From the NCBI GenBank assembly GCA_037388465.1, contig JARRKE010000024.1:1-34961 (forward strand): a stretch of DNA of 34,961 nt, read 5' to 3'. The notes below the pieces were generated by a model, which saw nothing but the letters and a program-made list of their open reading frames with translations, was not told the DNA's origin and did not search any database. Numbering within the stretch: the stretch's first letter is position 1; the number at the start of each line of letters is the position of its first letter. The DNA is from Gammaproteobacteria bacterium (GTDB taxonomy: Bacteria > Pseudomonadota > Gammaproteobacteria > SpSt-1174). The position numbers and the translations under genes were made by a program. Below are positions 27,653 through 32,040 of the stretch, in pieces.

Positions 27653-27772
27653 ACCTGTGGAATCTCGCTATGCACCGAATCCACCATATTACCTGTAATG
27701 GGCACGTTGATTCACGTCTCATCCCAACCGCGCACCAGCCATGCCTGTTCCATTCGGTCGGCACCCCCCCAT

Positions 27773-27794
27773 AGCGGTAACCCAGCGGTAACCC
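27773..27794 (+). repeat. Two head-to-tail 11-base repeats upstream of the JDVT-CTERM gene
   Basis: AGCGGTAACCC occurs twice in immediate succession (27773-27783 and 27784-27794), about 110 bases before the start of the plus-strand surface-protein gene. The 11-base step is close to one turn of DNA, so a dimeric or tandem regulator could bind. The rest of 27653-27905 shows no gene and no clear -35/-10 pair. Confidence 0.5.
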
Positions 27795-27905
27795 CCGCCT
27801 AACTACAGTAATTACAAAGGCAAGAAAACCAGCCGCCGGCATAACAAGTCGATAGTCGTAACGCGATACAGGACGGCACCGCTGGGCAAAACAGGGGGAA
27901 TAACC

Positions 27906-29387
27906 ATGAAGCTCAAGACCAACTCCGGTCCATACACGATCGTTCGCACAGCCCTGCTGGCAGCAAGCCTCATAGGCTTGGGCGTGAATCCACCTGCTGC
28001 CAACGCGTTGGTAGGGATAAACAACATCCAGGTGACAACGACCAATGACACGGTCGATGTGGCCACCGATGGGGTTTGCGCGGATGCGGCGGGCCAGTGC
28101 AGCCTGCGTGCAGCGATCCAGACGGCCAACGAACTCGGGGGCAGCGTTTATATCACCCTGGGGGCAACCACTTACACGTTGACACTAACGGGGGCGGGCG
28201 AACTCTTTTCCGCCACCGGTGACCTGAACATCAACAACGCTAGCGTGACGATTACCAGTCCGTACGGTCAGGCGACCATCAAAGGCGGTACGGGATGGGA
28301 CGACCGCCTCATTCAGGTTGGAGGCTCGGCGCAACTCTCTATCAGCAATGTCGTATTGACCGGCGGTAACTCACCCGCCAACGGCGGCGCGATCTGGGGT
28401 GCAGACACATCCAGTCTGATCCTGCGTAACAGCCGGGTCACCGACAACCAGGCCGCCAGCTTTGGGGGCGGCATCTCAGGAGAAGGGCTTTCACTCTTCG
28501 TGGAGAACAGCCGCATCGACAACAATACGAGCGGTGCTCAGGGTGGTGGCATACTTGCACACGCAGCCAGCAATACCATCAGCACCTCAACCATTGACCA
28601 CAATACCGCGGACAGCAGTGGCGGAGTCTATGCCTATCCACCCCCAACGGGCAGCGTCGACATCGTTCAAAGCACGATCAGCAACAATACGGCGCGATAC
28701 AACGGCGGCGGTATTCAGGCGGTCCAGAACGTCAACTTCTACAGTACGACGATTACGGGCAATACAGCAGCTGCGAGTGGTACTTCGGGGTATGGTGGTG
28801 GCATCTATCTCGTCAATACCGCCAATATCCGCAACTCGATCGTCGCGGGCAATATGGCATCCTATTTTGTCACCACGACGATCAGCAGCCCGGATTGTTA
28901 CTCCCCTAATCCGGGTACCGTCTTCCTCGCCAGCCAGGGCTACAACCTGATCGGCGACATGACCGGCTGCACGATGGATGCCTCGGGCCTTGGGGAACAG
29001 CTTGGCGATGCCACCAACCCCATTGATCCGCTGTTCGGTCCCCTGCAGGACAATGGCGGTGTGACGCCCACGCACCTGTTGCTTACGGGCAGCCCGGGCA
29101 TCGATACCGGCAACCCCAATGGCTGCGTCGGGACGACGGGCACTGAACTCACCACCGACCAACGGGGTTACACACGACCCATAGACGGAGATGCCGACGG
29201 TGTCGCCGTCTGCGATCTCGGTGCAGTCGAAATCACGCCCACCGTCTCGGCCGCTGCATCTACCTCCGGTGGTGGCGGCGGGGGTGGCTGCACGATCAGC
29301 AACGGGACGGGCATCGACCCGACGCTGCCCGGTCTACTGCTTGCAGCGCTTGCCTATCTCGGTTGGCGCCGTAAACACCGGACATGA
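27906..29387 (+). CDS. Beta-helix surface protein with choice-of-anchor Q domain and JDVT-CTERM sorting tail
   Basis: A 493-residue secreted protein. A signal peptide spans residues 1-34 (cleavage near NALVG). Residues about 44-76 hold a CSLREA-type motif (GQCSLRAAIQTAN). About 12 short parallel beta-helix repeats follow (GGAIWG, GGGISGEG, GGGILAH, GGGIQAVQ), then a choice-of-anchor Q domain (DPLFGPLQDNGG... DTGNPNG... TDQRGYTRP... CDLGAVE). The tail is Gly455-461, Cys462, SNGTGIDPTLPG, a hydrophobic segment (474-487) and RR: the JDVT-CTERM form, with an invariant Cys ahead of DPxLP. The next gene, overlapping by four bases, is a matching glutamic protease. The tail is probably cut near Cys462 and the protein fixed to or released from the cell surface. 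The ligand is unknown; GC looks lower than around it. Confidence 0.85.
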   Translation: MKLKTNSGPYTIVRTALLAASLIGLGVNPPAANALVGINNIQVTTTNDTVDVATDGVCADAAGQCSLRAAIQTANELGGSVYITLGATTYTLTLTGAGELFSATGDLNINNASVTITSPYGQATIKGGTGWDDRLIQVGGSAQLSISNVVLTGGNSPANGGAIWGADTSSLILRNSRVTDNQAASFGGGISGEGLSLFVENSRIDNNTSGAQGGGILAHAASNTISTSTIDHNTADSSGGVYAYPPPTGSVDIVQSTISNNTARYNGGGIQAVQNVNFYSTTITGNTAAASGTSGYGGGIYLVNTANIRNSIVAGNMASYFVTTTISSPDCYSPNPGTVFLASQGYNLIGDMTGCTMDASGLGEQLGDATNPIDPLFGPLQDNGGVTPTHLLLTGSPGIDTGNPNGCVGTTGTELTTDQRGYTRPIDGDADGVAVCDLGAVEITPTVSAAASTSGGGGGGGCTISNGTGIDPTLPGLLLAALAYLGWRRKHRT

Positions 29388-29824
29388 AACGTTTCTCTGA
29401 CTGGCAGCTGTGGGCGGCCCTTGCGGTCGCCCTACCTGTCTGGGGTATTGCCTATCTCTGGTTCCGTCCACCCATCATCTTAGGCTGGCCACTGAACCAT
29501 CCCCTGCTGGCGCTCAAACTCGTTCTCTTTTTTCCCCTGGCCGAGGAAATCGTTTTCCGCGGATTGATTCAGGACTTCCTGCATACGCACTTGAAACACC
29601 AGTGGGGATACCTTTCCGCTGCCAACCTGCTTACCAGTCTGCTCTTTGCCGCGCTGCACTTGATAAATCATGCGCCTGCCTGGGCATTGCTGGTGATCTT
29701 TCCTTCTCTCGTCTTCGGTTACTTCCGTGAGCGACATGAAACCCTGCTCACCCCGGTAGGTCTTCATATCTTCTACAACGCCGGTTACTTCCTGCTCCTG
29801 GCCCCACCGTCTGCCTTGCTGTAA
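29384..29824 (+). CDS. mrtJ: Glutamic-type intramembrane protease (MrtJ-like, JDVT-CTERM system)
   Basis: A 146-residue membrane protein of the CPBP/CAAX protease (Abi) family with about four hydrophobic segments. The three family motifs are complete: EEIVFRG with Glu54, Glu55 and Arg59; FAALH with Phe88 and His92; and HIFYN with His128 and Asn132. Members of this group include dedicated sorting enzymes for proteins with C-terminal Cys/Gly plus membrane-helix tails. The start ATG overlaps the stop of the JDVT-CTERM substrate gene as ATGA, so the pair is translated together, and no other protein in this window carries such a tail. Cleavage at the substrate tail is inferred. It is shorter than most CPBP proteases, as expected for the sorting branch. 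Confidence 0.85.
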   Translation: MKRFSDWQLWAALAVALPVWGIAYLWFRPPIILGWPLNHPLLALKLVLFFPLAEEIVFRGLIQDFLHTHLKHQWGYLSAANLLTSLLFAALHLINHAPAWALLVIFPSLVFGYFRERHETLLTPVGLHIFYNAGYFLLLAPPSALL

Positions 29825-29931
29825 ACGCCCTCGATGCCGGTTATCACCACACATCGTCCAAGACATAGCCCTCGTGCCTTACGAGATATAACGATGCCGG
29901 AACTTTACTTAACGCACCCGCCTGTCTAACG

Positions 29932-29959
29932 AAAAAGCCCCGCACTGCGGGGCTTTTTT
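29932..29959. terminator. Bidirectional terminator between mrtJ and glyS
   Basis: The stem AAAAAGCCCCGC / GCGGGGCTTTTT with loop ACT, with T-runs on both strands, serves the convergent mrtJ and glyS genes. Confidence 0.92.
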
Positions 29960-29980
29960 GTGCCGGGCTTCTTAGAACGA

Positions 29981-32040
29981 TCAACCCTTCAAACGCGACA
30001 GATCGGCCGCTCTCAAGAACAAATCACCGAGGCCGTTCAGCAATGCGATGCGGTTGTTCTTCAGCGCTTCGTCCTCAACCATGACCATGACGTCGTCGAA
30101 AAACCGGTCCACGGCCTCGCGCAGACCGGCCAGCTGCGTCAGCGCGGCGCGGTAGTCGCCCTTGTCGAACAGCGGGTCGACCTCGGCATGCATCTGCGAT
30201 ACCTGTTCGGCCAGCGCCTGTTCGGCGGGCTCCTTGAGCAGTTTGCTGTCGATATGGCCTTCCACCCCACCTTCGACCTGCTTGAGGATGTTGCGGATGC
30301 GCTTGTTGGCCGCCGCCAGGCTTTCGGCCTCCGGCAGTTGGATGAAGGCTGCCACAGCCTGGATGCGGTGGTCGAAGTCCAGCGGCCGCGTGGGGTCTCC
30401 GCCGACACGCCACGGTCCTGGTAATAGGCCTTCAGGCGTTCCATCACATAATCGAAGGTCTCGCTGACGGCACCGAAGGCATCCACCTGACCCTCGAGGC
30501 CGCGGGCGGCATGCTGCAGCAGAATCTCGAGATCGAGGTCCAGCCGCTTTTCGATCAGGATGCGCAGCACGCCCAGCGCGGCGCGGCGCAGTCCGAAGGG
30601 ATCCTTGGTACCGGTCGGTTTCTGCCCGATGGCGAAAATGCCGAGCAGGGTGTCCAGGCGGTCGGCCAACGCCAGGGCCTGCCCCACGCCGCCAGCCGGC
30701 AGCTCGTCACCGGCATGGCGCGGCATGTACTGCTCGTCCAGCGCCTCGGCCACGGCCTTGGGCTCACCGTCGTGGCGCGCGTAATAGCGCCCCATGATGC
30801 CCTGCAGCTCGGGGAACTCGTACACCATCTGCGTCATCAGGTCGCACTTGCCCAGCTCGCCGGCGCGGCGCGCCTCATCGGGCTCGGTGCCGATTTCCAA
30901 TGCGATGAACTCGGCCAGCCTGGCGACCCGCTCACTCTTGTCGTACAGGGTGCCCAGCTTTTTCTGGAACACCACACTCTTGAGCGATTCGCGATGCTCG
31001 GCCAGGGGCTGCTTGCGATCCTGGTCCCAGAAGAACGCCGCATCCGCGAAGCGCGGGCGGATGACCCGTTCGTTACCTTCGCGGATCTTGTCGGGGTCGT
31101 CGCTCTCGATGTTGGCGACGGTGACGAAGTACGGCAGCAGCCGGCCCTTGTCATCGACCACCGGGAAGTACTTCTGGTTGTCCTGCATGGTGGAGATCAG
31201 AGCCTCGTGCGGCACCTCGAGGAAGCTCTCCTCGAACCGTCCCGTCACGGCCACCGGCCATTCCACCAGCGCGGCCACCTCGTCGAGCAGGTCCTCATCG
31301 ATGCGGGCCCTGCCCTTGACGCCATGTGCCGCCTCCTGGACCTGGGCCAGGATCGCCTCGCGGCGGGCATCGAAGGACGCCACCACCTTGCCTTCGGTTT
31401 CCAGCAGCGGCGCGTAGGCGGCCGGCTCGTCCAGATACAGGGCCTGCGGGTGATGGAAGCGGTGACCGCGGGTCTCGCGCCCGGCACGCACGCCCAGAAT
31501 CTCGGCGTCGATGATCGCGTCCCCGAACAGCAGCACCACCCAGTGCACCGGGCGCACGAATTCCGCCTCGCCGGCACCCCAGCGCATGCGCTTGGGGATG
31601 GGCAGGCCGGCCAGGGCCTGTTCCACGATGCCCGGAATCAGATCCACCGCCGGCTGGCCCTTTTCCAGGCTGCGGTGCACCAGCCAGGCGCCCTTGTCGG
31701 TTTCCTCGGTCTCCAACTGGTCCACGCTCACGCCGCAGGAACGGGCGAAACCCTCGGCGGCCTTGGTCGGCTTGCCGTCGCCGTCGAAGGCGGCCGTCAC
31801 GGCCGGACCACGCCGGGTCGCCTCGGCGTCCTTCTGGCGGCTTTGCACGGAGTGCACCAGCAATGCCAGGCGGCGTGGCGCCGCGAACGCCTCCTCGCCC
31901 TTGTGGCTCAGGCCGGCCTGCTTCAGGCTCTGCAGTACACCGTCGCGGAACGCGTCGCGCAGGGTCTTCAGCGCCTTGGGCGGCAACTCCTCGGTGCCGA
32001 TCTCGATGAGCAGGTCGTGATGCTCGATGCGGGCGCTCAT
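29981..32040 (-). pseudogene. glyS: Glycyl-tRNA synthetase beta subunit, frameshifted with a small deletion
   Basis: GlyS is the tRNA-binding subunit of the tetrameric (alpha2beta2) glycyl-tRNA synthetase. The frame from ATG 32040 reads true GlyS (LLIEIGTEELPPKALK, FDARREAIL, SDDPDKIREGNERVIRPRF, FQKKLGTLYDKSERV) down to about 30385 (YYQDRGVSAETP). After this the C-terminal anticodon-binding part continues in another frame: TRPLDFDHRIQAVAAF, AAANKRIRNIL and DDVMVMVEDEALKNNRIALL to the stop at 29981. One base, or 3n+1 bases, is missing; about ten residues normally found after GVSA are also gone. The gene is essential and otherwise unspoilt, so a sequencing or assembly error, or a very recent mutation, is likelier than a dead gene. 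It overlaps glyQ by four bases. Confidence 0.85.

Follow-up and report, generated by a model that had tools for sequence, protein, structure and literature searches.

The window, by which we mean the whole stretch of 34,961 nucleotides analysed here, carries two overlapping genes on its plus strand, the first encoding a protein with a JDVT-CTERM tail and the second a glutamic (CPBP) intramembrane protease, MrtJ. The features of the locus are as follows:

27653..29980, no strand assigned: islet holding the pair between gmhB and glyS (neighbour comparison, GC3)
27906..29387, plus strand: JDVT-CTERM protein, 493 aa, with CSLREA and choice-of-anchor Q domains; probably a beta-helix surface protein
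27906..28007, plus strand: predicted Sec signal peptide, aa 1-34, ending in PPAANA before L (sequence reading, hydropathy)
28026..28130, plus strand: CSLREA domain (TIGR04214), aa 41-75, 26.9 bits, cut-off 25
29025..29234, plus strand: choice-of-anchor Q domain (NF041518), aa 374-443, 71.6 bits, cut-off 25
29274..29375, plus strand: JDVT-CTERM sorting signal (NF033191), aa 457-490 of 493: Gly-Cys, DP, short hydrophobic helix, Arg-rich end
29289..29291, plus strand: codon of the invariant Cys462, proposed lipidation and cleavage point (tail alignment; role by analogy with MYXO-CTERM)
29384..29824, plus strand: MrtJ, glutamic (CPBP) intramembrane protease, 146 aa
29543..29548, plus strand: codons of catalytic E54 and E55 (EExxxR, with R59; alignment of homologues)
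29657..29659, plus strand: codon of H92 (FxxxH, with F88; alignment of homologues)
29765..29779, plus strand: codons of H128 to N132 (HxxxN; alignment of homologues)
29929..29961, no strand assigned: inverted repeat between mrtJ and glyS, 16-nt arms, 94% complementary, with A and T runs

Both reading frames are as originally predicted, and so is their ATGA overlap (29384-29387), in which the start of mrtJ overlaps the stop of the substrate gene. This overlap suggests that the two genes are co-transcribed; no sigma-70-like promoter was found for the pair. The inverted repeat that separates mrtJ from glyS probably acts as a bidirectional terminator.

The 146-residue protein matched the MrtJ equivalog model (NF033192) with 102.6 bits (E 1.4e-29, cut-off 75) and the Pfam Rce1-like model with 60.2 bits (cut-off 22.4), and stayed below the cut-offs of the MrtX, MrtC and MrtP models (36.5, 49.9 and 61.1 bits vs 180, 195 and 250). 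The CPBP motifs EExxxR, FxxxH and HxxxN are all intact, as had been claimed, and their residues E54, E55, R59, F88, H92, H128 and N132 are invariant in an alignment of 43 homologues. A confident AlphaFold2 model (pLDDT 91.5) consists of helices at residues 7-27, 40-69, 79-95, 98-118 and 122-138, in which the motifs lie. Structure searches with MrtJ gave weak matches only, the best being an APH-1B chain (Z 5.2, rmsd 3.7, 101 residues aligned). It should be noted that two negative results show little: the MrtJ profile had no match among sequences of solved structures at E up to 1, and there was no CPBP structure among the Foldseek matches listed for the model.

In the substrate, PMP-type repeats were detected by profile search as weak matches. 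Its structure model, computed without an alignment, is of low confidence (pLDDT 49.1), and the best Foldseek matches of this model were almost all right-handed beta-helices, including pectin-lyase-like ones. Together with the CSLREA and choice-of-anchor Q domains, these matches favour the suggested beta-helix fold but, given the low-confidence model, fall short of proof, and we regard the substrate as a probable beta-helix-type surface protein. Its C-terminus exceeded the cut-off of the JDVT-CTERM model (NF033191; 54.2 bits, E 9.5e-15, cut-off 27), in agreement with the assignment made from the letters alone. The tail, TSGGGGGGGC(462)TISNGTGIDPTLPGLLLAALAYLGWRRKHRT, runs from seven glycines (residues 455-461) through Cys462 and DPTLPG to a short helix and an RRKHR end, and its Gly-Cys, DP motif, hydrophobic segment and basic end were all recognisable when it was aligned with 32 others. 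While most of the tail is thus as described at the outset, the presumed membrane helix is a hydrophobic stretch of only about 14 residues (474-487), rather few for a helix that spans the whole membrane. Among the 33 genuine tails, nothing is more constant than the cysteine, which follows a Gly in every one (33/33). The role proposed for Cys462 as the cleavage or lipidation point fits this invariance and the analogy with MYXO-CTERM.

The pair lies on the strand opposite to glyQ, glyS, gmhB and plsC, all of which are on the minus strand. Five relatives (G001 and G002, both of the same family, and G016, G004 and G013) have only 11-59 bp between glyS and gmhB, whereas the gap in the window is 2328 bp and contains nothing but the pair. 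GC3 values of the two genes are 0.69 and 0.65, against 0.80-0.88 in the five surrounding genes checked. The empty site in relatives and the lower GC3 indicate an insertion in this lineage, and probably a recent one, of a two-gene unit into a housekeeping operon; no mobile-element terminal repeats were evident at the ends of the islet. Among these relatives, G002 has MrtJ at another site with no tag at E 1e-5, and G001 (assembly 75% complete) has two tags and no MrtJ. In the window, glyS (29981-32040, minus strand), a single frame in relatives, is split by a frameshift at about 30350-30400, which is probably an assembly or sequencing error.

The genome containing the window (2.79 Mb, 98.85% complete, 151 contigs) was found by whole-genome profile search to encode a single JDVT tag over the cut-off and a single MrtJ, so that the predicted one-substrate, one-protease arrangement is valid within the limits of the assembly, and no second protein carries the same tail over the cut-off. 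Five further JDVT matches were rejected at 9-14 bits (E 0.2-6), the level seen in control genomes, and a pattern scan of their loci revealed no convincing tag-like tail. In a survey of 369 genomes of the class, MrtJ over the cut-off occurred in 52 and JDVT tags in 38, with both in 36 (Fisher p 5.6e-35), and exactly one tag was present in 25 of the 38 JDVT-carrying genomes. MrtJ genes were located within 300 bp of 9 of the 66 tags, and directly adjoining genes recurred in unrelated genera with unrelated substrates. Tagged proteins comprised a thermolysin-type peptidase, a c-type cytochrome, other metalloproteases, choice-of-anchor proteins and Ig-repeat adhesins, and the co-occurrence together with this variety implies that tag and protease travel together while the cargo changes. 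In Marinobacter aromaticivorans (L056:2215-7810), two JDVT-tagged proteins, one per strand, flank the MrtJ gene.

Two genomes had tags without MrtJ, and 16 had MrtJ without a detected tag (G002, G005, G049, G090, G101, G103, G124, G157, G185, G206, G238, G267, G309, G334 and G353, besides G028). The latter, and the many roles that CPBP proteins have, could be taken to mean that the tail does no more than anchor the protein in the membrane, with the CPBP protein serving another role, e.g. in regulation or immunity. We consider this highly improbable in view of the MrtJ match above the equivalog cut-off, the extreme co-occurrence and the direct adjacency recurring across unrelated genera with unrelated substrates. 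Moreover, G028, although counted as tagless, has a diverged tag (GGGGGCVMATDGSTDSG...) adjoining its MrtJ (L022:2-1351), and the other tagless genomes perhaps likewise encode substrates with diverged tags. The dedicated sorting pair proposed from the sequence is thus supported by the family cut-offs, the single copies and the strong class-wide co-occurrence.

We therefore read the pair, with considerable confidence, as a self-contained MrtJ/JDVT-CTERM surface-display unit in which export, lipidation of Cys462, cleavage by MrtJ and transport by the type II secretion system (T2SS) would follow one another. In the course of events that we infer as regards lipidation, the exact cleavage site, the T2SS route and surface display, Sec would export the substrate, which would stay anchored in the inner membrane through the hydrophobic segment at its C-terminus, whereupon a housekeeping acyltransferase would probably lipidate the invariant Cys462. 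MrtJ would then cut on the helix side of this residue, using its E54/E55-H92-H128/N132 site, and the T2SS would take the lipid-anchored substrate to the outer surface. Cleavage beside Cys462 after lipidation is expected by analogy with MrtX, which cleaves the MYXO-CTERM of TraA in M. xanthus and E. coli and for which the conserved cysteines are needed (PMC11980579); Lgt is the published candidate acyltransferase for the MYXO system.

No lipidating enzyme is encoded near the pair, and no dedicated acyltransferase recurred beside MrtJ in the clustered neighbourhoods, where the only recurring partners were the MrtJ and OmpA groups, a low-complexity cluster and clusters of 2-4 loci. The lack of a recurring acyltransferase would suit a one-step transpeptidase, as proposed for rhombosortase, in which cleavage of the tail is coupled to attachment of the freed C-terminus to a lipid or another amine, Cys462 being a recognition residue and not the lipid site; in related sorting systems the substrates stay anchored in the membrane, and for some of these systems transpeptidation has been suggested. 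Such a reaction is nevertheless unlikely, as CPBP enzymes such as Rce1 cut beside a prenylated Cys, MrtX needs the MYXO-CTERM cysteines, and no other feature of the JDVT tail is as constant as its Cys. For the last step of the preferred route, lipidation followed by cleavage and T2SS transport, the genome encodes a full-length GspD, the T2SS secretin. Full-length GspD was found in 49/52 MrtJ genomes vs 174/317 others (p 4e-9, uncorrected for relatedness), a correlation that may be due to shared ancestry or genome size; the three MrtJ genomes without it (G101, G180 and G313) are all assemblies in 210-300 contigs.

Altogether 15 genomes of other lineages have a beta-barrel/OmpA gene next to JDVT genes, MrtJ genes or both; this gene follows the tag within about 110 bp (13/66 tags) or precedes MrtJ (11 loci); at several loci the tag, barrel/OmpA and MrtJ genes overlap or nearly do so. 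A JDVT-CTERM adhesin, beta-barrel/OmpA and MrtJ, or two of the three, stand in series at L102:5613-12101, L104:1483-6034, L105:3262-13683, L106:2-2759, L107:1313-4577, L108:5152-8173, L109:5930-7707 and L110:5996-7620. This layout resembles that in Myxococcus, where the gene for TraA (MYXO-CTERM) stands beside that for TraB, a protein with barrel, TSP3 and OmpA parts (PMC6372800, PMC12045341). The likeness is one of layout, a tagged adhesin/receptor gene beside a beta-barrel/TSP3/OmpA gene, and TSP3 repeats gave a Pfam match in one barrel/OmpA partner. The window pair, unlike TraA/TraB, has no barrel/OmpA neighbour; a search of its own genome for a barrel-OmpA gene gave no match at E 1e-40. 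Since some genomes that lack MrtJ encode barrel-OmpA proteins too, these proteins are not exclusive to MrtJ/JDVT. In G180, a JDVT tag is in-frame with an outer-membrane barrel that runs to the contig end (L112:1-3185, minus strand), and a second contig (C131) opens with what is left of the barrel-OmpA and with MrtJ; a shared frame of this kind has been reported for MXAN_5598. We tentatively suggest that MrtJ/JDVT units are exchangeable surface-display modules, of which the branch with a TraB-like barrel/OmpA outside the window might be the gammaproteobacterial counterpart of TraA/TraB adhesion.

Several sorting systems are comparable. Rhombosortase/GlyGly-CTERM shares a Gly-rich tripartite C-terminal tag, an intramembrane protease and the T2SS route, and differs in its serine rhomboid protease and many-to-one pairing; the GlyGly-CTERM tag is not known to be defined by a Cys. 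MrtX/MYXO-CTERM of Myxococcus xanthus is similar in its CPBP protease, invariant Cys, short helix, Arg-rich end and T2SS link, but has another tag sequence, dozens of substrates per genome and a longer protease (model of 238 positions vs 146 aa for the MrtJ of the window). Haft has already published the MrtJ/JDVT-CTERM two-gene system itself (NF033192/NF033191), in an in silico study to which PMC11980579 refers. Reported from beta- and gammaproteobacteria, it has the equivalog and the tag found here and likewise pairs one protease with one substrate, and the window differs only in details, i.e. the CSLREA/choice-of-anchor Q substrate and the position between glyS and gmhB. The pair is thus a further, clean copy of the published pairing and its novelty is low; what the present analysis adds is the islet between glyS and gmhB, the class-wide co-occurrence counts and the beta-barrel/OmpA neighbours in other lineages.

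For MrtJ itself we found no experiments in the open literature searched. The original prediction overlooked that exactly this two-gene neighbourhood has been published and that MrtX, a close relative, has experimental support. CPBP-based sorting has been experimentally tested in one case found in the literature, MrtX, and this pair of one substrate and one protease, about 640 residues in all, is a handy minimal system for asking whether the Cys is lipidated, where the tail is cut and whether the T2SS is the route. The comparison with the empty site in relatives shows how a unit of this type can be acquired in one piece.
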